A program made the position numbers and the translations under genes. DNA of 64,000 bases from Thiocystis violascens DSM 198. GTDB taxonomy: Bacteria > Pseudomonadota > Gammaproteobacteria > Chromatiales > Chromatiaceae. Location: assembly GCF_000227745.2 (NCBI RefSeq), contig NC_018012.1:2774501-2838500 (forward strand), written 5' to 3'. Below the pieces are notes generated by a model. That model ran no database searches, was not told where the DNA came from, and saw only the letters and a list, made by a program, of their open reading frames with translations. Below are positions 11,903 through 64,000 of this stretch, piece after piece. Positions within the stretch are counted from its first letter, which is position 1. Each line of letters starts with the position of its first letter.

Positions 11903-12329
11903 CTGGATCTCCGGAAATGGTTTGGTGGCGCCGTGGCCTGTGACCGGCCTTTACGGTTCGATGATGCAGTGCAGCATGTTACCGCAAAGCCCTAGCGCGC
12001 AGGCATCGCGCCGCGGGCGAGCACTGCGATAACGTTGATCCCTGTAGCGACATTCCGGGGAACCCCATGCGTGTATAGGTTGCAAAATGGGGCAACAGCC
12101 TCGCCGTGCGCCTTCCTGGTTCTCGACCTTTTCGAGCGGCTCGGCCCCGTCTCCTGAAGCCGTTCGTGGTTCGAGTGCCTCACCACGAACGGCTTCAGGA
12201 GACGGCGAACGTCAGTCCACACTGAAAATTGCAGGCATCCGCGGTTGGCGGTAGTCAATCGCCGTCCGACCGATTAGGATCGCGTGATCATTCGCAACGA
12301 CGCCGAATCATACTGGACGCGCTTCAATC
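11903..12329. other. Intergenic region between maeB and trkA
   Basis: Divergent promoter space of 427 bp for maeB (minus) and trkA (plus). It contains the 24-bp-arm inverted repeat at 12147-12205. A short minus-strand frame across 11992-12258 reads through that palindrome and is not convincing as a gene. Confidence 0.5.
12147..12205. repeat. Perfect inverted repeat, 24-bp arms, 11-nt loop (family A core)
   Basis: Left arm 12147-12170 and right arm 12182-12205 are exact complements around an 11-nt loop. The arms contain TGAAGCCGTTCGTGGT, the core palindrome of family A repeats found at 21533, 46681, 50171, 52790, 58236 and 60213. Here the arms are perfectly matched and the loop is short, so it would form a very stable hairpin or cruciform. 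Confidence 0.9.
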
Positions 12330-15193: not shown

Positions 15194-15217
15194 CCTGAGG
15201 GCCTTTGAAGACTTGCT

Positions 15218-15300
15218 AAACCGCGTCCAGCGCGACATGCGTAATTTTCAGTTTGTGTGTGGCTCTGGGGATTTCACCAGCCTCACGAGAGACGCGGTTT
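15218..15300. repeat. Family B repeat, copy 1
   Basis: Starts with AAACCGCGTC (15218-15227) and ends with its complement GACGCGGTTT (15291-15300), giving a terminal inverted repeat around about 63 bp. The interior differs from the other family B copies. Confidence 0.7.
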
Positions 15301-15325
15301 AAAATTTTATCTTTTTTAATATCTT

Positions 15326-15408
15326 AAACCGCGTCCGCTCCGACTATCGTCGATGCGGCCAAGGTTACTCCAATCCAAAACATCGCATACCGCACTGGAC
15401 GCGGTTTA
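15326..15408. repeat. Family B repeat, copy 2
   Basis: Starts with AAACCGCGTC and ends with GACGCGGTTTA. The interior (TCGTCGATGCGGCCAAG, then CCAATCCAAAACATCGCATA) is close to that of 43050-43143. Its last bases supply the TAA stop of minus-strand proB. It is separated from copy 1 by an AT-rich spacer of about 25 bp. Confidence 0.8.
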
Positions 15409-21466: not shown

Positions 21467-21532
21467 GAGGTCGCTCTCGCGTGTTGAGGTTCGGTCGAAT
21501 GGGACGAATGGGAAATCCGGGGCTCGGCGCGT

Positions 21533-21643
21533 GAAGCCGTTCATGGTTCGACCCTTCGACGGACTCAGGACTCACCGCGAACGGATGCAATGTCACCACG
21601 CACGGATGCAGTCTGGGTAAGATCTTTTCCAAAAATCGCCTCA
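21533..21643. repeat. Family A repeat copy
   Basis: Contains the core GAAGCCGTTCATGGTTCG, ACCCTTCGACGGACTCAGG and a terminal GTAAGATCTTTTCC, AAAAATCGCCTCAA similar to the right end of 60213-60452. The terminal TCA forms the stop codon of the minus-strand Crp/Fnr-like gene. Confidence 0.75.
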
Positions 21644-42858: not shown

Positions 42859-43049
42859 ACCGCCGATGCGACTCCCTTCGGTGATTTCCGGAAAACACAT
42901 GCCCCGTCGGTCGGGTTCGGCGCGCGTGGCATGGCGTCTCGATTTCAGTGCCAGCGCTTAACGCACGCCGTCACCCGACGTTTCGCCATGGAAAGTCGGG
43001 TGACGCTGCGCTAACCCGACCGACCATGAAAATGACGCATTTCGCTCTG
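42859..43049. other. Gap after the chemoreceptor gene
   Basis: Together with the repeat at 43050-43143 this makes a gene-free stretch of 314 bp. I see no further gene or clear terminator in it. Confidence 0.5.
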
Positions 43050-43143
43050 GACGCGGTTTGAACCGCACCCTCTCCGAGAGTCGTCGATGCCGCCAAGATC
43101 GATCCAATCCAAAAACATCGCATACCGCGCTGAGCGCGGTTTA
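43050..43143. repeat. Family B repeat, copy 3
   Basis: Bounded by GACGCGGTTT (43050-43059) and GCGCGGTTTA (43134-43143). The interior shares TCGTCGATGCCGCCAAG and CCAATCCAAAAACATCGCATACC with copy 2 (15326-15408), at roughly 80 percent identity by eye. Confidence 0.75.
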
Positions 43144-45913: not shown

Positions 45914-46300
45914 ATGAGTGCAACGCCCTGGGATACCGATCCCATCCATCCCAATCCCAACATCTTCGATATCGACACCGACCGCTTCCAGACCGAGGTG
46001 CTCGACGCCTCCCGCTCGCATCCGATCCTGGTGGATTTCTGGGCCGACTGGTGCGCGCCCTGCCGCGCGCTGTCGCCGCATCTGGAACGGGTCGTCGAGG
46101 AACTCGACGGGCAGGTGCGGCTCGCCAAACTGGAGGTCGACGAGGGCGACAACATGCGCCAGGCGGGACACTACAAGGTGCGGGGCTTCCCGACCGTGAT
46201 CCTCTTTCTGGAGGGGCGGGAACTGGCCCGTTTCAGCGGGGCGCGTTCGCGCTATCAGATTCGGGAATGGCTGCGACAGCATCTGGTCCCAGGATCCTGA
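45914..46300 (+). CDS. Thioredoxin-domain protein
   Basis: A 128-aa thioredoxin fold with the active site in VDFWADWCAPCRALSPHLERV (Cys pair near residues 47 and 50), the cis-proline in VRGFPTVILF and an N-terminal extension of about 20 residues containing HPNPNIFDIDTDRF. It lacks the TPR domain of CnoX/YbbN, so it is a short thioredoxin-like reductase or chaperone of the cytoplasm. The start is at 45914 with a GGTG-type site. No operon partner: degenerate genes flank it on both sides. Confidence 0.88.
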   Translation: MSATPWDTDPIHPNPNIFDIDTDRFQTEVLDASRSHPILVDFWADWCAPCRALSPHLERVVEELDGQVRLAKLEVDEGDNMRQAGHYKVRGFPTVILFLEGRELARFSGARSRYQIREWLRQHLVPGS

Positions 46301-46355
46301 CCAAAGCGCTGGCGGCGTCCTTTTTTCTTGCATCCCCGCGCGTCATCATTCGGGG

Positions 46356-46679
46356 ATGCGACTCTCGATTCACGCCAGACTCTTCCTGACCCTGCTATCG
46401 CCGCGACCGTTCCTGGGAGCCGCTCCTTGCGGATCGGCGTCTGTGGATCGCCGCCCTGACCCCGAGACGGCCGAACTGCGCTTTCGCGCCACCCAGGGCC
46501 ACCGGCTCTGGATCATCGCGCTGGCCATGCTGCTGCTGTCGGCGGTGCTGGCCTATCCGCTCTCAAGACGACTGGCGCGACCGGTTCGCGACTTCCAGCA
46601 CGCCGCCCTATAGCCCGCGCGAGCTGGTGGCGTATAGCCCGCGCGAGCTGGTGGCGCGGGTCAAGGCGGTGCTCAGAGC
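46356..46679 (+). pseudogene. Two-component system debris (sensor kinase plus response regulator)
   Basis: MRLSIHARLFLTLL is a sensor-kinase N-terminus. In another frame comes DRSWEPLLADRRLWIAAL, then HRLWIIALAMLLLSAVLAYPLSRRLARPVRDF (split over helix and HAMP start) of a BaeS-like kinase. The frame then jumps to YSPRELVARVKAVLRA, the end of a BaeR-like receiver. So two adjacent genes have collapsed into about 320 bp. A 24-bp tandem duplication (46610-46657) sits at the junction. Confidence 0.75.
46610..46657. repeat. 24-bp tandem duplication
   Basis: Two perfect copies (46610-46633 and 46634-46657) of a unit encoding YSPRELVA in the dead response-regulator frame. It marks a recombination or slippage junction. 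Confidence 0.9.
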
Positions 46680-46680
46680 G

Positions 46681-46738
46681 TGAAGCCGTTCATGGTTCAA
46701 CCCTTCGACGGGCTCGGGACTCACCACGAACGGCTTCA
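46681..46738. repeat. Family A repeat, core palindrome only
   Basis: Arms TGAAGCCGTTCATGG and CCACGAACGGCTTCA enclose TTCAACCCTTCGACGGGCTC-type sequence. It directly follows the receiver remnant. Confidence 0.8.
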
Positions 46739-46883
46739 GGCTGCCTTAGCCCTGCTTTCCGGGCAGAGAAGACGAAACGGTCAGGCTCAAACTGAGAATT
46801 ACTGGCGCTCGCTTGCCGGGCTTGCGGGTCTGACATAGCATGACAACATCGCTGCTTATCCGAATCCCTCTCCGTCCGAGCCC

Positions 46884-50159
<3,276 letters not shown>

Positions 50160-50170
50160 TGGACACGCCC

Positions 50171-50396
50171 TAAGCCGTTCGTGGTTCGACCCTTCGACTA
50201 CGCTCAGGACTCACCATGAACGGATGCAATGTCGGCCTCGGAGCGCGATTTTCCGGTCATCCTTCGACCCTTCGACAAGCCTGTCCTGAGCGAAGCCGAA
50301 GGGCTCAGGACTCAGGACGAACGGAAAATCGGTAAAGTCTTTCCCGTAAATCACCTTAATGGCAGTGAGTCGAAGAGTCGAACCACGAACGGCTTA
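50171..50396. repeat. Family A repeat, near-complete copy plus half palindrome
   Basis: Same order as the complete copy at 60213-60452: AAGCCGTTCGTGGTTCG, a CCTTCGAC..CTCAGGAC hairpin, a second hairpin ending GGACGAACGGAAAATCGG and the terminal AAAGTCTTTCCCG, TAAATCACCTTA (to 50358). The left end TTAGGTGATTT is missing. An extra half palindrome GTCGAACCACGAACGGCTTA lies at about 50376-50395. Confidence 0.8.
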
Positions 50397-50419
50397 ACTT
50401 TCAGGCACCCAGGGGGCGA

Positions 50420-52741
50420 TCAATGCATCCTGGCCGCATGCTCGCGATACCATCCGACGAAGCGCTCTCCCGACATCGGCACGCCCAGAAAAAACCCCTG
50501 GACCTGGTTGCAACGGTGCGCGCGAAAGAATTCCAAATCCGACTCGGCCTCGACGCCGACCGCGGTGATGTCGAGCTTCAAGGCGTGCCCGAAACCGATA
50601 ATGGTCTTCAGTACGGCGGGCATGCTGTCCGTGGAACCAAGTCGCTGGACCAGCGCCCGATTGATTTCCAGCCGCTCCAGCGGCAGTTGCTCCAACTCGC
50701 CGATCGCCGAGCAGCCCATGCCGAAATCGTCCAGCGCCACGCCGACCCGAAGCTGTTTCAGCTCGCCGAGCAGACGCTGGGAGCCCTCCTTGTCCTGCAT
50801 GAGCGCCGCCCCGCTTAATTCCAGCGAGAGCGCTCCCGGATCGATCCCGGCCGCCTCGGACGCGGCGGTCAGTTGGCCCAGAAACCCCTGATGGTGAAAC
50901 TGACGGGCCGACACGTTGACGGCGATCCTGATCGGCGGCAGCCCGCTGTTCCGCCAGGCCAGATGCTGGCGGCAGGCCTCCTGAAACACCCACCGACCAA
51001 GCTCATGAATCAAACCGCTGAATTCGGCCACCGGGAGAAAGTTCTGAGGCGCCACGTCGGACCGGTCCGGCTGCGGCCAGCGCAACAGGGCCTCAACCCC
51101 GGTCACGGCGCCGCTGCGCGTATCCAGCACCGGCTGGTAGACCAACCGGAACTCGTTGCCCGACAACCCTTCACGCAGCCGGGCTTCCAGCCTCGTCTCG
51201 TCGCACACCTTTCGATTCAGCGCCTCGGTCACGAATTGATAATGACCGGGGCTGAACTGCTTGGCGTGGTACATCGCAAGATCCGCGCGCTGGATCAGGC
51301 AGTCGATATTGTCGCCGTCCTGCGGGAACAGACTGATCCCAAGACTGGCGACACAGGGCAACTCCAGCCCCTCGATCGCGTAGGCTGGCGTCAAGGCGAC
51401 GATGGCATTGCGCGCCGCGCGCGCCGCGTCGTCCGCGTCGCGGATATGGGACAGGACGACGACGAACTCGTCGCCACCGAGCCGGGCGACCAGATCCTCG
51501 GCGCGGAACGTATCCAGCAGCCGTTGCGCGACCGCCCGCAGAAGCCGATCGCCCACCGGATGGCCATAGGCATCGTTGATCGCCTTGAAGCGATCCAGGT
51601 CGAAAAACAGGACCGCCAACTGGCGGCCCGCGCGGCGGGCGCTCGCGAGCATGTGGTTCGCCACATGCTCAAGCAGTGCGCGCCCCGGCAGGCCGGTCAG
51701 CGGATCATGCTGCGCCACCTCGATTGCCCGATCCTCGGCCTGCTTGCGCGCGGTGACATCCTGCTGCACCAGCAGGACGCGCTCGACCTGGCCGCGGGCA
51801 TCCTGGATCGCTTTCAAACGTGCGACGAACCAGCGGTAAAGACCATCCTTGCGCCGCAGCCGGTACTGGATTTCGCAGGGCGTCTCGGGGGCATCGACGA
51901 AACCGGTGAGCTGGAACAGAATCGGTTCGCCGTCTTCCGGATGCAGCAATGCGGCCCACTCGCCGAGCCGCTTGGGCGCTTCCGCAGGGTCATAGCCGGT
52001 CTGGCCATGCCATTCGGGCGGAAAGTGCACCTCGTCCGTGTTCGGAGACCATTCCCAAAAGGTCAACTCGGCAATCTCCCCCATCAGGCGCAGTCGCAGG
52101 GTATCGAGCAGATCGCGTTCGCTGCGTTTGCGCTCGGTGATGTCGCTCAGAGTGGCTCGCCAGATGGTGTGCGCGCTCCGCGCATCCCGGCTGAGGCTGG
52201 TTTCCAGGCGGATCCAGACCGACTGCCCGTCGTCACAGCGCAGACGCAACTCCCCAACCTGCCGCTCGCCCGTGGACCAGAGCCGGTTGCGGCAACTGTA
52301 ATAGGCGTCCTGATCCTCGGGGAGAATGAAGCGGGTCAGTGGCCGACCGACCAACTCCGCGCGCGGAATGCCCAGCAGGGTCGCCGCGGCCAGGTTGGCC
52401 TCTTCGACCAGGCCCGCTTCGTCGAGGGTCAGATAACCCATGGGCGCCAGGTCGAAGAGATCGAAATAACGCGCGCGCGAGATTTCCAGTTCCTCCTGGA
52501 TCTGTCGCAGCTCGTCGTTCTGCATCTCCAGTTCAAGCTGATGCACTTGCAGTTCGTGGACCAGCAGTTCGTGGGTATTGGGCGTGAGCGAGCCGGCCCC
52601 TACGGCGAGGCTTGCGATCGGCTCCAGGATCTCCGTCGCCCCCAGGCGCGCCTCCGCGCGCCGACGCAGATCGTGCCAGGAGTACGACCGGCCAGCCTGG
52701 AAGGCGGCAGGCGTATGACGCGGATCGTTTGATTGAGGCAT
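50420..52741 (-). CDS. PAS-PAS-GGDEF-EAL protein
   Basis: A 773-aa c-di-GMP protein closely related to 19985-21466. Helical N-terminal segment (ELEMQNDELRQIQEELE), PAS 1 (about 85-190), PAS 2 (about 205-320; FWEWSPNTDEVHFPPEW), GGDEF (about 330-490; RLGGDEFVVVL intact, near 422) and EAL (about 515-760). The EAL motif itself is kept (GVEALLRW near 549), but LELSGAAL replaces the EITE-type motif, DDFGMGCSAI replaces DDFGTGYSSL, LEINRALV replaces KIDRxFV, and AVGVEA replaces AEGVET, so phosphodiesterase activity is doubtful. It is probably a cyclase with a binding-only EAL. ATG at 52741 was chosen for its GGAG spacing; the open frame starts at a GTG at 52756. Confidence 0.9.
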   Translation of the reverse strand: MPQSNDPRHTPAAFQAGRSYSWHDLRRRAEARLGATEILEPIASLAVGAGSLTPNTHELLVHELQVHQLELEMQNDELRQIQEELEISRARYFDLFDLAPMGYLTLDEAGLVEEANLAAATLLGIPRAELVGRPLTRFILPEDQDAYYSCRNRLWSTGERQVGELRLRCDDGQSVWIRLETSLSRDARSAHTIWRATLSDITERKRSERDLLDTLRLRLMGEIAELTFWEWSPNTDEVHFPPEWHGQTGYDPAEAPKRLGEWAALLHPEDGEPILFQLTGFVDAPETPCEIQYRLRRKDGLYRWFVARLKAIQDARGQVERVLLVQQDVTARKQAEDRAIEVAQHDPLTGLPGRALLEHVANHMLASARRAGRQLAVLFFDLDRFKAINDAYGHPVGDRLLRAVAQRLLDTFRAEDLVARLGGDEFVVVLSHIRDADDAARAARNAIVALTPAYAIEGLELPCVASLGISLFPQDGDNIDCLIQRADLAMYHAKQFSPGHYQFVTEALNRKVCDETRLEARLREGLSGNEFRLVYQPVLDTRSGAVTGVEALLRWPQPDRSDVAPQNFLPVAEFSGLIHELGRWVFQEACRQHLAWRNSGLPPIRIAVNVSARQFHHQGFLGQLTAASEAAGIDPGALSLELSGAALMQDKEGSQRLLGELKQLRVGVALDDFGMGCSAIGELEQLPLERLEINRALVQRLGSTDSMPAVLKTIIGFGHALKLDITAVGVEAESDLEFFRAHRCNQVQGFFLGVPMSGERFVGWYREHAARMH

Positions 52742-52789
52742 CATCAGCTCCGTCACCGTCGTGGTCGATTATTCAGGCGATTTTCGGTT

Positions 52790-53277
52790 TCCAATTTTCG
52801 GTTTCCGGTTCCGGTTTCCGGTTTCCGGGAAAGACGTTGCCGATTTTCCGTTCGTCCTGAGGCACTCGAAGGACGAACGGAAAATCGCGCTCCGAGGCCG
52901 GCATGGCCTCCGTTCATGGTCCGACCCTTCGACGGGCTCAGGACTCACCACGAACGGAGGCCATGCCACCTTCCGGCTTCCGGCTTCCGGCTTCCGGCTT
53001 CCGGCTTCCGGCTTCCGGCTTCCGGCTTCCGGCTTCCGGCTTCCGGCTTCCGGCTTCCGGGAAAGACGTTGCTGATTTCCAGGAAAGACGTTGCCGATTT
53101 TCCGTTCGTCCTGAGGTACTCGAAGGACGAATGGAAAATCGCGCTCGGAGGCCGGCATGGCCTCCGTTCATGGTTCGATAAACTCACCACGAACGGATGC
53201 AATGTCACCACGAACGGATGCCATATCACCACGAGCGTGTTGCAATCTAGCGATAAGCTTTTCCACAAATCGCCTAA
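52790..53277. repeat. Compound family A repeat array
   Basis: Two family A-like units in series (52830-52965 and 53060-53277), each with GACGTTGCCGATTTTCCG, a hairpin GTTCGTCCTGAGG..ACTCGAAGGACGA and GGCATGGCCTCCGTTCATGG. They are joined by a heptamer array. The right end CTTTTCCACAAATCGCCTAAA is a family A terminus. Confidence 0.8.
52970..53060. repeat. Heptanucleotide array, 13 x CTTCCGG
   Basis: Exactly 91 bp of CTTCCGG repeated 13 times. A degenerate relative (TTTCCGG/GTTCCGG) lies at about 52795-52830. It is between two minus-strand sensory genes, roughly 230-320 bp upstream of the gene starting at 52741. A 7-bp unit is not a multiple of three, so slippage would alter spacing or any overlapping frame. 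Confidence 0.95.
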
Positions 53278-53306
53278 ATCCGGATTGAATTTCCCCGGAC
53301 ATCGCC

Positions 53307-55067
53307 TCAGCGAAACGGCGCAACCGGACAGCGGGCCAGCAAGTCAGCCAGCGCGTCCCGTTGCAATGGTTCGAGCAGGCACTCGTCAAAGCCCGCCGCC
53401 CTCGCCCCTTCGACATCCGGCTCCTGCCCATCGCCGGCGACCGCCACCAGCCAGGCGGTTCGACCCGGTTCGGTGGCGCGCAGGCGGCGCGCCAGCTCGC
53501 CGCTGTCCATGCCGGGTAACCCGACATCGAGCAAAATCAGATCGGGACGCAGACGCTCCACGACCGCGAGCGCCGCGGTTGCGTCCGCGGCCGTCTCCAC
53601 TCGCTGACCCAGGAGACGCAACTGCAGGGCGCAATTCTCCGCCGTCGCCGGGCGCTCCGCGACAACCAGGATGCGGTAGACGTTCGGACAGGTCCGCGCC
53701 TCCGGAAGCGACCGCGCGGTGTCCGCCGGCAGCCGATCCGACAGCGGCAGTCGCACGCTGAAGGTACTGCCCTGGCCAAGCCCGGGACTCGTTGCCGTGA
53801 CGCTCCCGCCATGCAGTTCCACCACGCCCTTGACCAGGGCAAGCCCGATGCCGAGACCGCCCTGGCGACGTTCGGGGGTCTGCTCGGCCTGAACGAAGGG
53901 GTCAAAGATTCGGGAGTACAAGGACGGGTCTAGGCCGGCGCCCGAGTCGCGCACCTGGAGCAATGCGCGGCCATCGACCGCCTCCAGCGACAGGACGATC
54001 GACGCCTCCGGCGGACTGAACTGACTCGCGTTGCGCAGCAGGTTGACGACGACCTGGGCCAGACGCACCGCGTCCCCGTCCAGCGTCAGGGGCAGGGCGG
54101 GAAGCGTCATCTCCAGGCGCTGCCGGCGTTCGTCCAGCAGTGGGCGCACCTGCTCGGCGGCATGTTCCACCGCCTCGCGCAGATCGCATGGCCGCCGGTC
54201 CATCTCCATCTTCCCGCGTCCGATGCGCGAGATATCGAGCAGATCGTCCACCAGCCGGACGAGATGGGCGACCTGCCTGGTCAGGATGTCCGATGCCTGC
54301 GCGATCATCGCTGGCGCATGGGTTGGCGCCAGCCGCAAAACCTCGGCGACATGCCGGATCGGGGCGAGCGGATTGCGCAACTCGTGACCGAGCAGGGCGA
54401 GGAATTGATCCTTGCGCCGGTTTTCCTCGCGCTGGATCGCCTCGGCAAGCTGCGCCGCCTCGGTGCGCTTGCGTTCGCTGAGATCGCTCAGAATCACCAG
54501 ACAGTGCGTCGCCCCCGCGTCCCCATCCTTCCCCAGGGCGAATTCCAGATGGGCCGGAAAGGGCAGTCCGCCCCCACGACGCAGACGCAGATCGCAAGCC
54601 TGCCAGTCGCCCGTGGCAAACAGATGCCGGCGGCAGCGGAAAAAATTATCCTGATCCTCGGGCAGGATAAAGCCGCTCAGCGGCCGATTGACCAAGTTGC
54701 CTCGCGGGATCCCCAGCAGCTTGGACGCGGCGAGATTCGCCTCCCGGATCGCCCCCTGTTCGGTGATGGTGACATAGCCCACCGGAGCGAGGTCGTAGAG
54801 TTCGAAATAGCGCGCCCGAGACAGCTCCAGCGCCTCCTGGGTACGGCGCAATTCCTCGTTTTGCATCTCCAGTTCGATCTGATGTACGTTCAGATCCTGA
54901 AGCATGCGCCCAATCTCATCAGGCCCCATCGATGACAGGCTTCCGTCGAACATGACTCCCTCCCGTTCTCCCTTGCGCCGGCGCAGTGCCGTTTCCGCGC
55001 TGGCGGTTTGCCCGTGCGCCGACGATCCGCGATCCGGGCGGTTTTCCGCTTCGTCGTTATGAGTCAT
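53307..55067 (-). CDS. PAS sensor histidine kinase with degenerate receiver
   Basis: A 586-aa protein: coiled-coil start (ELEMQNEELRRTQEALEL), PAS (about 75-190), HisKA with LGHELRNPLAPIRH (His near 230), HATPase (about 320-450; VRDSGAGLDPSLYSRIFDPF, GGLGIGLALVKGVVELHGG) and a C-terminal receiver-like domain (about 475-580). The receiver keeps LILLDVGLPGMD but has AE in place of the acidic pair and LLEPL where the conserved Lys-Pro is expected, so phosphorylation may not signal normally. The ATG at 55067 overlaps the end of the CheB-CheR gene by 11 bp, so the two are translationally coupled and probably act together. Confidence 0.92.
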   Translation of the reverse strand: MTHNDEAENRPDRGSSAHGQTASAETALRRRKGEREGVMFDGSLSSMGPDEIGRMLQDLNVHQIELEMQNEELRRTQEALELSRARYFELYDLAPVGYVTITEQGAIREANLAASKLLGIPRGNLVNRPLSGFILPEDQDNFFRCRRHLFATGDWQACDLRLRRGGGLPFPAHLEFALGKDGDAGATHCLVILSDLSERKRTEAAQLAEAIQREENRRKDQFLALLGHELRNPLAPIRHVAEVLRLAPTHAPAMIAQASDILTRQVAHLVRLVDDLLDISRIGRGKMEMDRRPCDLREAVEHAAEQVRPLLDERRQRLEMTLPALPLTLDGDAVRLAQVVVNLLRNASQFSPPEASIVLSLEAVDGRALLQVRDSGAGLDPSLYSRIFDPFVQAEQTPERRQGGLGIGLALVKGVVELHGGSVTATSPGLGQGSTFSVRLPLSDRLPADTARSLPEARTCPNVYRILVVAERPATAENCALQLRLLGQRVETAADATAALAVVERLRPDLILLDVGLPGMDSGELARRLRATEPGRTAWLVAVAGDGQEPDVEGARAAGFDECLLEPLQRDALADLLARCPVAPFR

Positions 55068-58000
55068 CGCAAGCCCCTGGCGGACGAGGCGCCGCCGGTT
55101 CCGAGACGGAGACCGTCTCGCTCTGGCGCATCCGTTCGGTGATATCCTCGATCGCGAGCAGAATGGCGCCGGCATGACCGGCGACCGGGTCGAGACGGCG
55201 CGCATTCAATAGCAGGGTGCGCTGGCCGAGTCCCGCAAACGTGGCGCTGACCCGGTAATCCTCGAAACCCCTGCCGTGCGACTGGAGCTCCAGCAGCAGG
55301 GTCCGCAAGGCCGGGAGATCCCATTGCCCGTTGCCCAGCTCCCAGAAGGTTTGCCCCAGGGACTGGGCCGGGGAGAGCTGAAAGTCGCGATGGAAGGCCC
55401 GGTTGGCCGAGACCACGCGCAACTCCCCGTCCAGCACGATCAGCGGCTCGCGCACCGTCTCCACGATGCCCGCGGCAAGGGCGCGCGCCTCTTCGAGTCC
55501 CTGCTCCATCCGCTTGCGCGAGGAAATGTCCATGAAGGTAATCACCGCCCCCTCGATGATCTTGTCGAGCGTGACATAGGGTCCGATACGCATCAGATAC
55601 CAATCGCCCCGCCGGATCCGGACCTCCGCTTCCAGTGGGGTCAGGCTCTTCAGGACGGCGCGCGCGTCCCTGACCAGATCGTCGTAGTCCACGAAGTTGG
55701 AGACGATGTCGCCCACCGGCCGTCCAATGTCGCTCTGGATCAGCTTGATCAACTGCGTCGTGGCGGGGGTGAAGCGGGTGATGCGCAATTGGTGATCGAC
55801 GAACAGGGTGGCGATCCCGGTTCCGGCCAGCAGGTTGTTCATGTCGTTATTGGCGCGCGACAGGTCGGCGACCTTGTCCTGCAACTCGACGTTGACGGTG
55901 GCCAGTTCCTCGTTGACCGATTGCAGCTCTTCCTTGGAGGTCTCCAGCTCTTCGTTAGTGGATTGCAGTTCCTCGTTGACCGATTGCATCTCCTCGTTGG
56001 TTGATTTCAGCTCCTCGTTGGCGGTCTGCATCTCTTCCAGGGTGCTCTGAAGATATTCCTCCTTGGCCCGCAGTTCCGATTCCAGCTCCGCGATGCGCCG
56101 CGCGCCGCCGCCAGGTTTCCCGCCGCCGGCGTCTTCCGCGGCGCGCGTCTCGACCGCCGGCGTGGGCACTGGCTCCAGCACCACCAGGTAGAGGTCCGGC
56201 AGGACGTCGCCATCGAGCGCCTGGGCCGGATGCACGGTCAGATTGACGCCGGTGAAGTCGCCGTTGGTCTTGACCCGCAACGCCGGCAGATGGACCGACT
56301 CCTTGCGCGCCACCGCCCGCTGCAGCGACAGCGTCAGCTCGCGGCGCAACCCCTCGCGCGCCATGTCGAGGATGTTCATGGCGGCATCCCCGGCGGCGGG
56401 TTCCAGATACTGCCCGCTGCGGCCATGGATATAGAGAATCTCGCCGCGCCCGTTGGTCAGAATTCCGACCGGATTGAAATGATTCAGCAAGGCCCGTTCG
56501 GTCAGCACGCGCGACTCGCTCCCGGCCTGGCTCCGTCCCGACGGCGCGGGCGTGGGCAGCCGCGCGTTGCCGGGCAGGGGCGGCGGGAAATGGCTCGGCG
56601 CCAGCGCGGGAACGCTCAGCGACGACTCCTGACGGACATAGAGTTTCCACTTCCGGCTGAGCGGCGCGAACGACGTGAGCGCCTCGCCCACTGTCTCCGA
56701 ACTGCCCAGAAACAGCACGCCACCGGGATTCAGGGCATAGTGGAAGAGCGAAATCAGCCGTTTCTGCAGGTCACTGTTCAGATAGATCAGGAGATTGCGG
56801 CAACTGATCAGATCCAGGCGCGAAAAGGGCGGATCCTTGATCAGGTTCTGTTCGGAGAACACCAGGAGATCGCGCACGACCTTCTGGATACGATAGACGC
56901 CATCCTCGGCATCCTGGGAGAAGAAACGCGCGAGCCGCTCGGTGGAGACATCGACGGCGATGCTCGCGGGATAGACGCCAACGCGCGCGCGCTCGATCGA
57001 GCGGGCGTCGAGATCGGTGGCGAAGATCTGCACCCGATAGGTTTTTTTCAGGGTTTCCAGGTGTTCCTGGAGCAGGATGGCGACGGAATAAGCCTCCTCG
57101 CCGGTGGAACAGCCGCACACCCAGACGCGCACCGGCGCGCCCGCCGGCCGATTGGCGAACAGCCCTGGGATGACGTCGCGTTCCAGCACGGCGAAGGCCT
57201 CGGGATCGCGAAAGAAGCAACTGACGCCGACCAGCAGATCCTGAAACAGCGCGTCGACCTCCGTCGGATCCTTCTGGAGATAGCGCAGATAATCGTCCTG
57301 TTTGTCGATCCGGTGCAGCGCCATGCGCCGCTCGATCCGCCGTTCCAGCGTGCTCTGCTTGTACTGCGAAAAATCGTGGCTGGTACGGTCGCGCAGGAGG
57401 ATGCAGATCTTGTTCAACGCATCCACGACCCGCGGGCGCGGCGAGACCGGCGCGCGCGGTTTTCTGCCAAAAGCATGCGCCGCGAAGTCCATGAGTTTCG
57501 CCGGCATCTCGGCCGGCGCCAGCTCGAAATCCACCAGCCCGGTGGCCAGAACGCTGCGCGGCATGCCATCGTAGGCCGCGCTCTTAGGTGTCTGCGCCAT
57601 CACCATGCCGCCCTCGCCCTTGATCGCCCGCGCGCCCAGCGTCCCGTCGCTCCCGGTGCCGGAGAGGATGACGCAGATCGCCCGCTCGCCCTGATCCTGG
57701 GCCAGCGAGCGGAAGAAGAAGTCGATGGGCAGACGCAGCCCGCGCGGCGCCTTGGGCTCCAGCAGGTGGAGCTTTCCGTTCAAAAGTGCCATATCAAGGT
57801 TGGGCGGGATGATATAGGCGCAGTCCGGCCGAACCGCCACGCCGTCGACGACCTCCTGGACCTCCATGCTCGTGTAGCGTTTGACCAGCTCGGTCAGGAT
57901 GCTCTTGTGATCGGGCGCGAGATGCTGCACCAGCACGAAGGCCATGCCGGTTTGAAGATCGGTGGGGATGGCGGAGAAAAACGCCTCGAAGGCCGCCAGA

Positions 58001-58194
58001 CCGCCCGCCGAGGCGCCGATGCCGACGATGGGGAACGGCGGCTCGGGCGCCGGTTCCGAGTCCGGCTCTGGCGCGGCATCGGTGTTCGGAACGCCCGCTG
58101 ACGACGCGTCGAGCGGCGCGTCTGGCGCATCGGCCGCCTGGGTGGGTGCCGACGTGGAATCCGGGTTCGCGTTATTGGTTTTTTTCCTGTCCAT
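55057..58194 (-). CDS. CheB-CheR-PAS fusion protein
   Basis: A 1045-aa protein. After a Pro- and Ala-rich lead comes a CheB methylesterase domain (about 50-235; VGIGASAGGLAAFEAFF with the Ser, VQHLAPDHKS with the His, LSGTGSDGTLGARAIK with the Asp). A CheR methyltransferase domain follows (about 250-515; FQDLLVGVSCFFRDPEAF, VWVCGCSTGEEAYSVAI, DLISCRNLLIYL). Then comes a PAS-like region, a long coiled coil of repeated NEEL heptads (about 690-790) and two PAS domains (about 790-1040). Such fusions combine both adaptation enzymes with sensing. The overlap with the downstream histidine kinase gene suggests one signalling module. Confidence 0.95.
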   Translation of the reverse strand: MDRKKTNNANPDSTSAPTQAADAPDAPLDASSAGVPNTDAAPEPDSEPAPEPPFPIVGIGASAGGLAAFEAFFSAIPTDLQTGMAFVLVQHLAPDHKSILTELVKRYTSMEVQEVVDGVAVRPDCAYIIPPNLDMALLNGKLHLLEPKAPRGLRLPIDFFFRSLAQDQGERAICVILSGTGSDGTLGARAIKGEGGMVMAQTPKSAAYDGMPRSVLATGLVDFELAPAEMPAKLMDFAAHAFGRKPRAPVSPRPRVVDALNKICILLRDRTSHDFSQYKQSTLERRIERRMALHRIDKQDDYLRYLQKDPTEVDALFQDLLVGVSCFFRDPEAFAVLERDVIPGLFANRPAGAPVRVWVCGCSTGEEAYSVAILLQEHLETLKKTYRVQIFATDLDARSIERARVGVYPASIAVDVSTERLARFFSQDAEDGVYRIQKVVRDLLVFSEQNLIKDPPFSRLDLISCRNLLIYLNSDLQKRLISLFHYALNPGGVLFLGSSETVGEALTSFAPLSRKWKLYVRQESSLSVPALAPSHFPPPLPGNARLPTPAPSGRSQAGSESRVLTERALLNHFNPVGILTNGRGEILYIHGRSGQYLEPAAGDAAMNILDMAREGLRRELTLSLQRAVARKESVHLPALRVKTNGDFTGVNLTVHPAQALDGDVLPDLYLVVLEPVPTPAVETRAAEDAGGGKPGGGARRIAELESELRAKEEYLQSTLEEMQTANEELKSTNEEMQSVNEELQSTNEELETSKEELQSVNEELATVNVELQDKVADLSRANNDMNNLLAGTGIATLFVDHQLRITRFTPATTQLIKLIQSDIGRPVGDIVSNFVDYDDLVRDARAVLKSLTPLEAEVRIRRGDWYLMRIGPYVTLDKIIEGAVITFMDISSRKRMEQGLEEARALAAGIVETVREPLIVLDGELRVVSANRAFHRDFQLSPAQSLGQTFWELGNGQWDLPALRTLLLELQSHGRGFEDYRVSATFAGLGQRTLLLNARRLDPVAGHAGAILLAIEDITERMRQSETVSVSEPAAPRPPGACDDS

Positions 58195-58235
58195 GGGCCT
58201 GCCTGGTTAAAAATGCTGAGAGTGCCGAGGCTCGG

Positions 58236-58296
58236 ATTTCCCGTTCGTCCTGAGTCCTGAGCGGAGCCGAAGGGTCGAACCATGAACGGCTTCAGG
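58236..58296. repeat. Family A repeat fragment upstream of the CheB-CheR gene
   Basis: Contains CCCGTTCGTCCTGAG and CGAAGGGTCGAACCATG, AACGGCTTCAGG, matching the core of family A. It lies 42 bp upstream of the CheB-CheR start codon, in its promoter region. Confidence 0.7.
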
Positions 58297-58539
58297 GACA
58301 CCGCGTTCGCTCGGGACACATCCGACCGGCGCACCCAGGACACCCAACCGCTTGTGATGGGTATTTGTACCTATTCGTCCGCACGAAAGCGATCCGTATA
58401 ACTACTTCATTCGCTCCTCGGCGCAGTGACGGCCTGGCGGCGGCTCCAGGAATTTCAAGCTATGATAAGCCCTCATCGGTTCGGAACCAGCGCGCACGCG
58501 CCAATCCGTCGACGCCGTCACAGGCAAACCGGCCGTTTC

Positions 58540-60216
58540 ATGCACACCCGTTCAGGACCATCGCCCTTGCAGCATCCCTTGTCGTCGCTCTCCGCCGCCG
58601 GTCCACGGACCGCTTCGGACGCGGACACCAATCTCCTGATCGGTTTGCTGCTCGTCATCCTCAGCGCTGGCGCGGCGCGGCTGTTCGGGCTCGATCATCT
58701 GTTGGTCTGGCATGACGAGGTCTTTACCCTGCTGCGCGTATTCGGCTACCGCCACGACGAGGTCCAGGCGGCGGTCTTCAGCGGACAACTCCTGACCCCG
58801 GACGATCTGCTGCGCTTCCAGCGCCCGGATCCCGCGCATACCTGGGCCGACGCCTTCCGCGCCTTCGCCGGACACCCGGAGCACGCACCTCTTTACTATG
58901 CGCTGGCACGCCTGGCAAGCGCGCTGCCGCTCGATCCGGTGAGCGCCGCGCGCGGCGTCTCGGCCGTGTTCGGTGTCCTGCTGATTCCGACCGTCTACTG
59001 GCTGACGCGCGAGCTTTTCGGCCGCGGTCTCGTGCCTTGGATCGCCGCCGCCCTGGTCGCCTGTTCGCCGCTTCAGTTTCTCTACGCTCAGGAGGCGCGC
59101 CAGTACGCGCTCTGGCTGCTGTTGACGGCGTCATCGAGCGCCGCGCTGGCGCGCGCGATGCGCCGCGACCGGCGCGCGGACTGGTGGCTCTATGGTCTGT
59201 TCATGACGCTCGGCGTCTATGCACATCTGCTGTTCGTGCTGATCGTCCCGGCGCACGCGCTGTACGGACTGCTGGCCTCTCGGGCCAGCGGCGCTCAGGC
59301 GGGACGGCTGGGCCGGCTGGGCCGCCGCTGGGGCAGCGCGGTTGGCGTCAGTCTGATTCTGTTCACGCCCTGGCTGTGGGTGATCGCCACCCAGCCCGGT
59401 CGCGTCGACCATTTCACGCACTGGATGCAGCGCCCGGCCGGTCTCGACGATCTCCTCGCGGCCTGGGCGCTGCATCCGACGCGAACCTTTGTCGACCTGA
59501 CCTCAAGCCCCGTGCTCTGGTGGAGCCTGCTGACCGTCCCGCTGGTCTGGGCGCTGGCGCGTTTCGTCCGCCGCGCCCCGCGTCCGGCGGTCTGGCTGCT
59601 CGTCGCCATGGCGTTGGCCTATATCGGCGTCATGCTGGGTCCGGATCTGCTGCTCGGCGGCAGCCGTTCGCTGCACGCGCGCTACGCCCTGCCGGCGCTG
59701 CTGGCCATTCAGATCATGGTCGCCTGGGTCATCGGCACCGCCATCGCCGCGCCGCCCGGCGCCTGGTCGCGCCGTTCCGGGCTCATGACGCTAGCCCTGC
59801 TGATCGCGCTCGGCGGCTGGTCGCTATTTGCCATCCAGCGCGCCGAGACCTGGTCGACCAAGAACTTCAGCGCGCAAAATGCCGACATCGCGCGGATCGC
59901 CAATGCCTCGACCGCGACCCTAATCGTGGCGAGCGAGAGCGGGGTAGGGCTGGGCGAACTGATCTCGCTCGCCTACCATCTCGCCCCAGAGGCGAGGCTC
60001 TGGGGGCAGCCCTGGGACCAGCGAATCACGCCTCCAGCCGGCTTCGAGACCCTGATCGTCCTAACCCCGTCGAACCAGTTGCGGGACGCCATCGGCCCCG
60101 AACGGCCCTTGACGCCCTTGGCCGGCACTTGGCAGTGGTTCGCGGTCACACCGCGCCGAGCGAGTTCCGACACACCAACCGCGCCCCCTCACGCGAACGA
60201 AGGAACGGTTTATTAG
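58540..60216 (+). CDS. GT39-type membrane glycosyltransferase
   Basis: A 558-aa integral membrane protein with about ten helices. The first periplasmic loop has the metal-binding WHDEVFTLL motif near residue 63, typical of polyprenyl-phosphate-dependent GT-C enzymes (PMT/ArnT clan). LYAQEARQYALWLLL near 185 is the other conserved segment. The donor would be a lipid-linked sugar; the acceptor is unknown. ATG at 58540 was chosen since upstream codons are Arg-rich and non-conserved. Its TAG stop is formed by the left end of the family A element at 60213. Confidence 0.85.
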   Translation: MHTRSGPSPLQHPLSSLSAAGPRTASDADTNLLIGLLLVILSAGAARLFGLDHLLVWHDEVFTLLRVFGYRHDEVQAAVFSGQLLTPDDLLRFQRPDPAHTWADAFRAFAGHPEHAPLYYALARLASALPLDPVSAARGVSAVFGVLLIPTVYWLTRELFGRGLVPWIAAALVACSPLQFLYAQEARQYALWLLLTASSSAALARAMRRDRRADWWLYGLFMTLGVYAHLLFVLIVPAHALYGLLASRASGAQAGRLGRLGRRWGSAVGVSLILFTPWLWVIATQPGRVDHFTHWMQRPAGLDDLLAAWALHPTRTFVDLTSSPVLWWSLLTVPLVWALARFVRRAPRPAVWLLVAMALAYIGVMLGPDLLLGGSRSLHARYALPALLAIQIMVAWVIGTAIAAPPGAWSRRSGLMTLALLIALGGWSLFAIQRAETWSTKNFSAQNADIARIANASTATLIVASESGVGLGELISLAYHLAPEARLWGQPWDQRITPPAGFETLIVLTPSNQLRDAIGPERPLTPLAGTWQWFAVTPRRASSDTPTAPPHANEGTVY

Positions 60217-60452
60217 GTGATTTTTGGCAAAGTTCATACCTAAATTGCAGCCGTTCGTGGTGACATTGCAGCCGTTCGTGGTGAGTCCTGAGCCCGTCGA
60301 AGGGTCGAACCATGAACGGCTGCAATGTCAGCCTCGGAGCACGATTTCCGCTCATCCTTCGACCCTTCGGCAAGCCTGTCCTGAGCGAAGCCGAAGGGCT
60401 CAGGGCTCAGGACGAACGGAAATCGGCAAAATCTTTCCCGGAAATCACCTTA
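60213..60452. repeat. Family A repeat, complete MITE-like copy (240 bp)
   Basis: The ends are inverted repeats: TTAGGTGATTTTTGGCAAAG on the left and the complement of TTAAGGTGATTTCCGGGAAAG on the right. If GGTGATTT is the true tip, TTA flanks both sides as a 3-bp target duplication. Inside are two long hairpins (CAGCCGTTCGTGG..CCATGAACGGCTG and GATTTCCG..CGGAAATC). There is no open frame. This looks like a non-autonomous mobile element. Confidence 0.8.
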
Positions 60453-60537
60453 ATAAGCACCCATTAGCGAATATCTTTGGCACCATTGTCGTTGTCGCAG
60501 TTTAGATAATTTTTCTCGTTACTCAGCGAACAAACGC

Positions 60538-63174
60538 ATGAATCGCTCCATCAATCTCGTTATCCCGCTCCTGATCGCCGCGCTGACAGCCACCGCCTGG
60601 TGGCTGTTGAACCAGCCATCGGAAGAGCCGCCCTGGCCGAATCGGATTCAGGGTTTCTCCTTCGCGCCCATGCGCGCCGACGATGACCCGAGCCTGAAAA
60701 AATTCCCTTCGGTGGAGGATATCGACGCGGATCTGGCGCTGCTGGAAGGGCGTGCCCATGCGGTGCGAACCTACACGGTCGAGGATACGCTGGCCGAAAT
60801 TCCCCGCCTGGCCGCGGCCCATGATCTGAATGTCACGCTCGGGGCCTGGATCGGCGCCGAACCCGCCGCCAACGAGACCGAGATCAAGCGCTTGGCCGAG
60901 GTGCTCAACGAAGGCCATCGCAACCTCGTGCGGGTCATCGTCGGCAACGAGTCCATTTTGCGCCGGGATCTTCCGGTGTCCGAACTGATCGGCTATCTGG
61001 ACCGTGTCCGCAAGCTCACCTGGCTCCCGGTCAGCACAGCCGAACCCTGGCATGTCTGGCTCAAGTATCCCAAGCTGGTCGAGCATGTCGACTTCATCAC
61101 CGTGCATCTGCTTCCTTACTGGGAGGGATTGCCGGTGGATCAGGCCGTGGACTATGCCGTCAGCCGCTATAACGAGCTGAAGGAAGCCTATCCGAAGAAG
61201 CCCATCGTGATCGGCGAGGTCGGTTGGCCCAGCAATGGCAGGCGCAACCGGGGCGCGGAACCCTCGCCGACCAATCAGACGCGCTTTCTACGCCGTTTCC
61301 TGGCCCGCGCCGAGGCCGAAAACTATATCTATTACGTCATGGAGGCGTTCGACCAACCCTGGAAGGCCAAGACCGAAGGAGCTACCGGTAACTATTGGGG
61401 CGTCTACAACGCCAACCGCCAGGCCAAGTTCGAGTTCAGTCAGCCGGTGGTGCGCATTCCGCAATGGCGCGAACTGGCCGGTCTGTCGGTCGTGATGGGC
61501 GTCCTGCTGCTGGTCTTCCTCTATCGCGACAGCGCGACGCTGGCGAAGCGCGGCAAGGGGTTTCTGGCGCTCGTCACCTATGCCATCTCCACCGCCGCCG
61601 TCTGGATCGTCTACGATTACACGCGCCAGTACATGACACCCGCCACGGCCATCGTTGGGGTACTGCTGCTGATCGGCGGGATCGGCGTCATCGTGCTGCT
61701 GATGGCCGAGGCGCACGAATGGGCCGAATCCATCTGGCTGAACAAATGGCGCCGTCCCTTCCCGCTGCGCACGGTCCCGGATGAGCAATTGCCCTTCGTC
61801 TCGGTGCATGTGCCGGCCTACAACGAGCCGCCGGAACTGCTGTGCGCGACCCTGGACGCGCTCGCCGCGCTCGATTACCCGCGCTTCGAGGTGCTGGTCA
61901 TCGACAACAACACCAAGGATCCCAAGGTCTGGGAGCCGGTCCAGGCGCATTGCGAGACGCTTGGCGAACGCTTCCGCTTCTTCCATGTCGACCCGCTCGC
62001 CGGCTACAAGGCCGGGGCGCTCAACTTCGCGTTGCGCCAGACCGACCCCGCCGCCGAAGTGATCGCGGTCATCGACGCCGATTATCTCGTGATCCCGACC
62101 TGGCTGCGCCACCTGGTGCCGGGCTTCGCCGATCCCGAGGTCGCCATCGTGCAGGCCCCGCAGGACTATCGCGACGCCGATCAGAACGCCTTCAAGGCGA
62201 TGTGCATGGCCGAATATCGCGGTTTCTTCCATCTCGGGATGGTCACGCGCAACGAGCGCAACGCCATCATCCAGCACGGCACCATGACCATGATCCGGCG
62301 CCAGACGCTGGATGAGGTCGATGGCTGGGCCGAGTGGTGCATCACCGAGGATGCGGAGCTGGGTCTGCGTCTGTTCGAGGCCGGACACAAAGCGCTCTAC
62401 ATCCCCTGCACCTATGGTCGCGGGCTGATGCCGGACACCTTCGCCGACTTCCAGAAGCAGCGCTATCGCTGGGCCTATGGCGCGGTGCGCATCCTGCTGC
62501 GCCACCGGCGCGAGCTGCTCGGGCTGCGCAAGACCGCGCTCACCGCCGGGCAACGCTATCACTTCGTCGCCGGCTGGCTGCCCTGGTTCGCGGACGGCTT
62601 CAATCTGCTGTTCAACTTCGCAGCGCTCGGCTGGTCGGTCGCCATGGTGATGTTTCCGGACACGATCACGCCGCCCTACCTGACGGTCGCGTTGGTGCCG
62701 CTGGTGCTGTTCGTGTTCAAGATGTCGAAGAGCCTCGTGCTCTACCGGCGCCGGGTCACGGCCACGCTGCGTCAGAGCCTCGCCGCCGGCCTGGCGGGTC
62801 TGGCCCTTTCGCACACCATTTCGCGCGCCATGTTCGGCGGACTCGTCACCGGCAAGCTGGGATTCTTCCGCACGCCCAAGATGGCGGAGGCGCCGGCGGT
62901 CGTCCGCGCCCTGGCGGACACCCGCGAGGAGGGACTGTTCGCCTTCGCCTTCCTGCTCGCCGCCGGTCTGGTGCTGCTGCGCGACGATGCCTACATGCTC
63001 GACGTGCGGATCTGGGTCGCGGTGCTGGTGGTGCAGTCGATTCCCTATCTGGCCTCGGTGCTGGTCTCGCTCGTCAGCGCCTGGCAGCGTCTGCCGGCGG
63101 ATCTGGTCGGGGTCATGTCGGAGATGAATGGTCAGCGGTTGAGCGGGGTGCAGCCGGTCAGTCGGGAGGGTTGA
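60538..63174 (+). CDS. GH17-GT2 beta-glucan synthase
   Basis: An 878-aa inner-membrane protein. An N-terminal anchor (about 8-26) is followed by a periplasmic GH17-like domain (about 38-305; VGNESILRRD and IGEVGWPSNG carry the two catalytic-type Glu), two or three helices (about 312-405), a cytoplasmic GT2 domain (about 415-650; DNNTKD, IDADYLV and the QKQRYRWAYGA form of QxxRW) and a C-terminal helix bundle. The same fusion in Pseudomonas (called NdvB there) makes periplasmic cyclic beta-1,3-glucans, so that product is likely. It differs from the GH94-type synthase at 27431-36121. The promoter region holds a family A element. Confidence 0.9.
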   Translation: MNRSINLVIPLLIAALTATAWWLLNQPSEEPPWPNRIQGFSFAPMRADDDPSLKKFPSVEDIDADLALLEGRAHAVRTYTVEDTLAEIPRLAAAHDLNVTLGAWIGAEPAANETEIKRLAEVLNEGHRNLVRVIVGNESILRRDLPVSELIGYLDRVRKLTWLPVSTAEPWHVWLKYPKLVEHVDFITVHLLPYWEGLPVDQAVDYAVSRYNELKEAYPKKPIVIGEVGWPSNGRRNRGAEPSPTNQTRFLRRFLARAEAENYIYYVMEAFDQPWKAKTEGATGNYWGVYNANRQAKFEFSQPVVRIPQWRELAGLSVVMGVLLLVFLYRDSATLAKRGKGFLALVTYAISTAAVWIVYDYTRQYMTPATAIVGVLLLIGGIGVIVLLMAEAHEWAESIWLNKWRRPFPLRTVPDEQLPFVSVHVPAYNEPPELLCATLDALAALDYPRFEVLVIDNNTKDPKVWEPVQAHCETLGERFRFFHVDPLAGYKAGALNFALRQTDPAAEVIAVIDADYLVIPTWLRHLVPGFADPEVAIVQAPQDYRDADQNAFKAMCMAEYRGFFHLGMVTRNERNAIIQHGTMTMIRRQTLDEVDGWAEWCITEDAELGLRLFEAGHKALYIPCTYGRGLMPDTFADFQKQRYRWAYGAVRILLRHRRELLGLRKTALTAGQRYHFVAGWLPWFADGFNLLFNFAALGWSVAMVMFPDTITPPYLTVALVPLVLFVFKMSKSLVLYRRRVTATLRQSLAAGLAGLALSHTISRAMFGGLVTGKLGFFRTPKMAEAPAVVRALADTREEGLFAFAFLLAAGLVLLRDDAYMLDVRIWVAVLVVQSIPYLASVLVSLVSAWQRLPADLVGVMSEMNGQRLSGVQPVSREG

Positions 63175-63262
63175 ACATTCCACAAGCCCCGGAAACACGC
63201 CGGGGCACATCCGTTGCCATCTGCTACATTTCAGTGAAATCAGTTTTCACCAGGCAAATCGA

Positions 63263-63505
63263 ATGAACGTTTTCGAGAAAACCGCGAAGATCTCAAGCAA
63301 GGGCCGAATCACTCTACCCAAGCACGTTCGCGATCTCCTCCAGTCGGATTTCGTGCGGCTCGTCATTGAGGACGGCATCGTTCGCATTGAAGCCATACCC
63401 GACCTCGCCGGCTGTCTGTCCGGTTACGCCAGGGGAGCGCCTGTCGAAAATGAGCGCGCAGAGGCGTGGGAGGCAGAGCTACGTGAGCGATATCAGTCTG
63501 ATTGA
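63263..63505 (+). CDS. AbrB/VapB-type antitoxin
   Basis: An 80-aa protein with a swapped-hairpin AbrB DNA-binding domain (AKISSKGRITLPKHVRDLLQ, VRLVIEDGIVRIEAI) and an acidic C-terminal tail likely to wrap the toxin. Its end overlaps the start of the PIN-domain toxin gene. Such antitoxins repress their own operon together with the toxin. Confidence 0.85.
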   Translation: MNVFEKTAKISSKGRITLPKHVRDLLQSDFVRLVIEDGIVRIEAIPDLAGCLSGYARGAPVENERAEAWEAELRERYQSD

Positions 63506-63893
63506 TGCCAACGTCATCCTCCGTTATCTGCTGGCGGATCACCCGGAACTGCATCTCCGTTCCAAGACAATCCTCGACGCTGTCCGTACTGATGGGCGAC
63601 GGGTTCTGATTCCTGAGTCCGTGCTCGCCGAATGCGTCTACGTCATGCAACGGATCTACCAGGTGCCGCGTGCCGAAATCGCCTCGAAGCTTGCGATCCT
63701 ACTTGGTTTCCCTGGCGTCACTGGCGAAGGACTTCCAATCCTTCGTCAATCGCTGGCCATTTACGCCGACACCAACCTGAGTTTTGTCGACACATTGATC
63801 GCCGCTCACGCTGCCGCCAGACAGCAGCCAGTCGAAACCTTCGATAAGGGGCTACGCCGTTATTTGGATCTTCAATTGAAATCAGATGTTTAA
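63483..63893 (+). CDS. VapC-type PIN-domain toxin
   Basis: A 136-aa PIN nuclease, presumably RNA-cleaving. The acidic residues are in LIDANVILRYL (Asp near 7), ESVLAECVYVM (Glu near 44), and SFVDTLIAAHA (Asp near 102), with a last TFDKGLRRY Asp. GTG at 63483 was chosen because GTGGGAGG lies about 9 bases upstream; ATG at 63450 is possible. Either start overlaps the antitoxin gene, as usual for these pairs. Confidence 0.85.
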   Translation: MSDISLIDANVILRYLLADHPELHLRSKTILDAVRTDGRRVLIPESVLAECVYVMQRIYQVPRAEIASKLAILLGFPGVTGEGLPILRQSLAIYADTNLSFVDTLIAAHAAARQQPVETFDKGLRRYLDLQLKSDV

Positions 63894-64000
63894 GGCGTAA
63901 TCTGCGTTCAGGCGATGCCGCGCCGACGCATACTTTGCCAGACGGTTTTTCGTTGGACAGGCTGGAAAAGTGACAATTTCATACGATATAGGGTTTACCC
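63894..64000. other. Window end, no gene seen
   Basis: The last 107 bases after the toxin gene hold no recognisable frame or RNA; a gene could begin beyond the window. Confidence 0.5.

Follow-up and report, generated by a model that had tools for sequence, protein, structure and literature searches.

In the 64,000-nucleotide stretch of the Thiocystis violascens DSM 198 genome analysed here (the window), positions 60216-60449 hold a 234-bp MITE without any gene, which we take, with a probability of roughly 0.86, to be a non-autonomous DNA transposon moved in trans by a DDE transposase of ISAzo13, a rarely described transposon family. Under the mechanism proposed here, the transposase would recognise the ~26-bp ends (GGYGATTTCC...TACC) and then excise or copy the element, which would insert at TNA, usually TTA or TAA, with those 3 bp being duplicated. 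A large, hitherto anonymous class of bacterial intergenic repeats would thereby gain a likely mover. As far as the literature was searched, neither a connection with ISAzo13 nor an exchangeable hairpin interior has been described before: a search for ISAzo13 together with MITE (subscription journals and ISfinder lay outside its scope) returned no description of such an element, and searches by sequence motif and by name returned nothing relevant.

Structure of the complete element

Between the two TTA copies that bound bp 60213-60452, the element runs from a left end (GGTGATTTTTGGCAAAG...) through two palindromes to a right end (...CTTTCCCGGAAATCACC). A complete copy with TTA on either side had been proposed at this place in a first-pass annotation, and this is borne out both by the sequence itself and by the single TTA found in two other genomes of the same genus (G004 and G005). 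The features are as follows.

60213-60215: left target-site copy TTA, overlapping the upstream ORF (58426-60216) at its stop codon; a single TTA in G004 and G005
60216-60449, + strand: complete 234-bp MITE
60216-60241, + strand: left TIR, GGTGATTTTTGGCAAAGTTCATACCT; 27.6 bits with an end matrix from other genomic copies
60262-60329: hairpin 1, GACATTGCAGCCGTTCGTGGT...ACCATGAACGGCTGCAATGTC; fold-supported, with arms that covary among copies
60342-60425: hairpin 2, CGATTTCCGCTCATCC...GGACGAACGGAAATCG; fold-supported
60424-60449, - strand: right TIR, GGTGATTTCCGGGAAAGATTTTGCCG (read inward); 38.4 bits with the same end matrix from other genomic copies
60450-60452: right target-site copy TTA

The MITE ends are imperfect TIRs of about 26 bp (GGYGATTTCCGGRAAAG...TACC; estimates of 20-26 bp, the first-pass annotation giving about 20 bp), and in the window element their terminal sequences are GGTGATTTTTGGCAAAGTTCATACC and GGTGATTTCCGGGAAAGATTTTGCC. 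Among 52 ends from 26 copies in the window's genome, the TIR consensus is GGTGATTTCCGGGAAAGATCTTACCG, and complete copies in this genome share the unit GGYGATTT...AAATCRCC. The two internal hairpins, also recognised in the first pass, are supported by the RNA fold of the complete MITE (z = -8.3, with 0 of 200 shuffles as stable), and its DNA fold gave z = -7.8 against shuffles. Likewise, inspection of ORFs in the 234 bp found no transposase ORF, in agreement with the view that no frame is encoded. Neither promoter-like nor intrinsic-terminator-like sites were detected inside the complete copy, and this lies between a PMT_2-domain gene and a glycosyltransferase-2-domain gene.

Target duplication and empty sites

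The set of copies from the window's own genome (G000) and the counts were drawn from searches. Here, identical 3-bp flanks were observed for 23 of the 34 own-genome copies (random re-pairing gave a mean of 10.8 and a maximum of 18) and for 35 of the 52 copies from other genomes (mean of 16.1, maximum of 26), which agrees with the MITE-like TTA duplication first described. Exact 3-bp duplications among the 34 own copies are mostly TTA or TAA, and 11 of these copies lack one; TGA/TGA and TTG/TTG were seen as well. Duplication lengths other than 3 bp (2 bp included) showed no enrichment in either the own or the other-genome copies. Moreover, direct TTA/TTA or TAA/TAA flanks outnumber inverted pairs by 21 to 1 in the own genome and by 33 to 4 elsewhere, and so TTA/TAA is a target duplication rather than an extension of the TIR.

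A 17.9-kb query (window 46000-63900) revealed synteny with contig 267 of G004 and contig 84 of G005, and in both the orthologous site is empty (...GGTTCATTAATCAG... / GGTTCATTAATCAGCTC), with a single TTA where the window has TTA-element-TTA. The boundary between filled and empty sites falls at the TIR and not at the hairpins. Flanks without duplication and a lack of presence/absence variation had been named beforehand as what would refute the proposed element; what we found were duplications and empty sites, and the proposal was not refuted. The complete copy is a true mobile element (MITE) and no chance repeat.

The upstream ORF stops at the same codon position with and without the element (TAA to TAG), and an unchanged stop codon position was observed for six copies adjoining ORFs of more than 300 aa (the window copy together with L004, L009, L011, L019, and L050). 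With TNA as its target, the element would often land in a natural stop codon, where its leading G bases would preserve a stop in frame: TTA+GG would become TAG, while TAA and TGA would stay unchanged. This retention of stops may be the reason why gene-adjacent copies are tolerated, and the use of stop codons as targets hints at a simple way for insertions to remain harmless.

ISAzo13-family elements with the MITE ends

Our transposase searches covered Y1, PF13359, PF01609, and PF07592 (the ISAzo13 transposase domain), and PF07592 matches were found to adjoin MITE-type ends in G005 and G228. The sister species G005 carries a 1,323-bp ISAzo13-family IS (contig 83, 2293-3615) that starts with GGCGATTTACGCGAAAGAACTTACCCG and reads GGTGATTTCCGAGTAACAATTTACCCG inward from its other end, and G038 (Desulfobacteraceae) a 1,597-bp ISAzo13 element with GGTGATTTCTAACAAAGAAYATCCC at either end. 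Further ISAzo13 ends of similar sequence occur in G001, G004 (two contig ends), and G228. With an end matrix made from 52 MITE ends of the window's genome only, the two best matches in the G005 IS were exactly both termini (30.5 and 19.9 bits, the next being -6.5), as was also the case for the G038 IS (15.7 and 13.1 bits, the next being -2.5). The single IS ends scored 28.3 (G001), 30.5 twice (G004), and 27.4 bits (G228), as compared with a maximum of 8.0 for shuffled loci. TNA precedes 8 of 8 IS ends; the flanks of the two complete ISAzo13 elements are not identical (TTA/TAA and TCA/TAA). For ISAzo13 and its eukaryotic relative Zator, 3-bp duplications have been reported (PMC10045372).

Because ISAzo13 elements carry the MITE ends, an ISAzo13-type transposase, and not RAYT, is the likely mover, and the similarity of the termini suggests that it probably recognises these MITE ends. 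A transposase gene sharing the termini, for which the first-pass annotation had recommended a search, thus exists as the ISAzo13 IS of G005 and G038 and not in the window's own genome, and its claim of mobilisation in trans is supported by these same ends on ISAzo13 elements elsewhere. In the own genome, the PF07592 search returned no ISAzo13 element with matching ends and only two remnants, neither having MITE-type ends; as nothing else of ISAzo13 remains there, we infer that mobility in this genome has now stopped or relies on an outside transposase. The G005 ORFs cover positions 7-142 and 147-387 of NCBIfam NF033519 (ISAzo13) in two separate frames, the switch occurring within an eight-A run, and the activity of this frame-split transposase is uncertain. 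In the ISAzo13 transposases at L413:2293-3615 and L391:883-2479, the frame changes within A8/A9 runs close to where the catalytic domain begins, the exact position differing slightly between the two, which may reflect either programmed frameshifting or decay.

A transposase of the IS5 group or of PIF/Harbinger type, with TNA or TWA as its target, is also conceivable as the mover, as the IS5 group and PIF/Harbinger, including the Tourist-like MITEs of the latter, share with this MITE a TWA target and terminal GG, and DDE_Tnp_1 matches number more than 140 in the genome. Nonetheless, we regard this as very unlikely: PF13359 was not found in G000, G004, or G005, representatives of the G000 DDE_Tnp_1 (PF01609) types have no MITE ends, the abundant IS5-type element, whose own ends differ (GAGGGTGTAGACAAAA), only uses MITE ends as insertion sites, and the matching transposase, whose elements do carry the MITE ends, is ISAzo13 and not IS5/Harbinger. 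This IS5-type element (385-aa transposase, more than 70 genome copies) is often situated in TAA at MITE edges (L008:1730-3080, L016, L026, L049, and L058), and in L008 it lies within the right MITE end, with the end sequence duplicated. Long-distance end pairs (0.5-4.5 kb, in the retrieved loci) were rejected, these being neighbouring MITEs, the IS5-split MITE of L008, or host genes (L255).

The hairpin module inside the ends

The core motif of the hairpin module (CCGTTCRTGGT) has 472 matches in the 5.02-Mb genome, as against 9 for the reversed control, and with one mismatch or fewer 24 in the window, where 2.3 are expected. This makes the core about four times commoner in the genome than the MITE ends (111-135 matches). 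In the own genome, the two-hairpin module is found as well within a second framework (B), CACTGCCATTAAGTTAAG...CTTAACTTAATGGCAGTG, or with neither end. Twenty further core-motif places were drawn almost in genome order from the matches, minus those already collected; about five of them have recognisable framework-A ends and about six framework-B ends. The module was also observed beside TTAGAAACTGTCCA-type ends in L010, L022, and L026, possibly a third terminal framework.

Such numbers would suit a palindrome of the REP/REPIN type, mobilised by a Y1 transposase (RAYT) and with an incidental outer TIR, the comparison that the first-pass annotation had recommended. REP/REPIN elements, too, are intergenic hairpins of palindromic sequence that occur by the hundred, the core also occurs here without ends, and the genome has three RAYT-like Y1 genes besides its IS200 copies. 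However, the palindrome flanks none of these three genes, and, unlike REP/REPIN, the complete element is bounded by TIRs and duplicates its target, with the filled/empty boundary at the TIR. These features point to a DDE transposase, and we judge movement by RAYT to be unlikely. A link to IS200 was set aside too, since the solitary MITE end located 0.2 kb from one of the three TnpA copies was judged to be chance.

Full complementarity of the outer six bases of hairpin 1 was seen in 50 of 96 hairpins, as compared with 9.8 (maximum of 20) on re-pairing of the arms, and compensated arms include TTGCAT/ATGCAA, TTGAAT/ATTCAA, TTGCAG/CTGCAA, and TTGCCT/AGGCAA. The structure is therefore kept, whether through selection or through conversion of one arm by the other. 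Together with the great stability of the hairpins, this complementarity might favour static structured intergenic repeats (terminators or RNA-stability elements) that are immobile and under selection. Gene conversion could equally maintain the palindromes, though, and the complete copy has no terminator-like site; for this copy, the clean insertion with target duplication, absent in two sister species, refutes a static repeat. Overall, we give this explanation hardly any credence, but it could still fit the stand-alone palindromes. An Rfam search yielded just sub-threshold hairpin matches of a chance type.

With ISAzo13 retained as the probable mover, the MITE resembles this DDE family (NF033519, PF07592; relative Zator) in its ~26-bp ends, TNA flanks, and 3-bp duplication, but it has no transposase gene. 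When both IS sequences were compared by blastn with all loci, matches were found only in ISAzo13 copies; thus, with no IS match in the MITE interiors, the MITE did not arise simply through internal deletion of the IS. We therefore claim ISAzo13 kinship for the ends only, and the two-hairpin interior, judging from these comparisons, is not IS-derived. The module inside the MITE ends would also spread, or survive, in other frameworks. In other bacteria, the same ends surround unrelated palindromes (TAGTTCCGCCTTCAGGCGG, GTAGGGACACGGCGCCGCCGTGTCCCTAC, TAGCCTGGATGAAGCGGAGCGGAATCCAGG, GTCATTCCCGCGAATGCGGGAATCCAG, and others). As 34 of the 36 palindromes in the Desulfococcaceae loci retrieved are accompanied by MITE-type ends, free-standing hairpins are established for the window's genome only. 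Tentatively, ISAzo13-type ends might be a general vehicle that has repeatedly captured unrelated palindromic repeats across phyla, the hairpins being a cargo that passes from one vehicle to another (here frameworks A and B) and not relics of a parent IS; we hold this to be a possibility at rather long odds. If true, it would explain the dispersal of several widespread intergenic palindromes of environmental bacteria. Because the hairpin interiors can be interchanged, the question of where dispersed palindromes come from lends itself to direct testing.

Other related places in the window

The window was scored with the MITE-end matrix built from other genomic copies, for which shuffled windows peaked at 6.5 bits. 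Aside from the complete element, the related places are these.

1016-1041, + strand: solitary MITE end, flank TTA; 20.3 bits
3576-3601, - strand: probable solitary MITE end (3601), flank TAA; 5.8 bits, weak and at background level
12149-12203: stand-alone hairpin 1 palindrome without MITE ends
21532-21640, - strand: partial MITE with hairpin 1 and a single end (21640, - strand, 36.3 bits), flank TGA
42880-42905, + strand: solitary end-like site, flank TTC; 21.3 bits
46679-46740: stand-alone hairpin 1 palindrome without MITE ends
50172-50355, + strand: partial MITE with both hairpins and the right end (50355, - strand, 40.8 bits), and with a framework-B-like palindrome edge (CTAAGCCG) in place of the left end; absent from G004 and G005
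52772-53274: double partial MITE, rearranged, with an expanded array of CTTCCGG heptamers and ends at 52817 (+ strand, 13.4 bits), 53071 (+ strand, 21.0 bits), and 53274 (- strand, 15.6 bits); absent from G004 and G005
58235-58296: chimaeric hairpin-module remnant without MITE ends; absent from G005

Among the nine places named in the first pass, one holds a complete element. Its list of eight partial or variant copies stands as regards the real ends or fragments at 1016, 3601 (weak), 21640, 50355, and 52817-53274, the entry at 52790 being the rearranged double copy with the heptamer array, whereas at 12147, 46681, and 58236, where TIRs are missing, there are only copies or remnants of the internal palindrome; the site at 42880 was missing from it. 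Similarly, the proposed proximity to sensory genes applies to several fragments, which PAS/kinase, GGDEF-EAL, and CheB/CheR genes adjoin, but not to the complete copy with its glycosyltransferase-type neighbours. The CTTCCGG array is located between two tandem partial copies and has apparently grown from the TTTCCGG of a MITE end. A second dispersed palindromic repeat (TAAACCGCGTCCAG...GCGATGTTTT) is found at 1061-1092, 15217-15408, and 43029-43143, beside some MITE ends. Elsewhere in the genome, L027 (G000:C1:2113814-2118396) contains tandem CCGTTCGTGGT units at a spacing of 21-23 bp, dozens of them in about 5 kb.

Known bacterial MITEs and distribution in other genomes

Correia/NEMIS, RUP, and ERIC are bacterial MITEs (reviewed in PMC2229807), and as with the element described here they are short and non-coding, with TIRs, a target duplication, and long stem-loops. 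This MITE differs from them in its TIR and its mobilising family, and from the Correia/RUP type in having a 3-bp TNA duplication instead of TA-type ends (PMC2229807).

Counted with the extended pattern TWAGGYGATTTYCNNNAANNNNNNTACC (one mismatch allowed), there are 111 ends in the window's genome, 347, 12, and 5 in three other gammaproteobacteria, 151 and 104 in two Lamprocystis, 329 in a Desulfococcaceae and 256 in a Desulfobacteraceae genome (both Desulfobacterota), and 14 in a Leptolyngbyaceae. The remaining Gammaproteobacteria (369 genomes scanned) gave isolated chance-level matches. The distribution of MITE ends is patchy and crosses phyla (Gammaproteobacteria, Desulfobacterota, and Cyanobacteria). 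Since unrelated bacteria carry these same ends by the hundred, many genomes may owe their copies to a single transposase family. A search of viral contigs gave one chance-like match, which argues against a phage vehicle. A near-identical 137-bp MITE is shared by contigs of a genome labelled Klebsiella pneumoniae MAG TH-08apr19-175 (L113 and L201) and the Deltaproteobacteria MAG S-RSF-IL-11, probably as a result of binning contamination or mislabelling.
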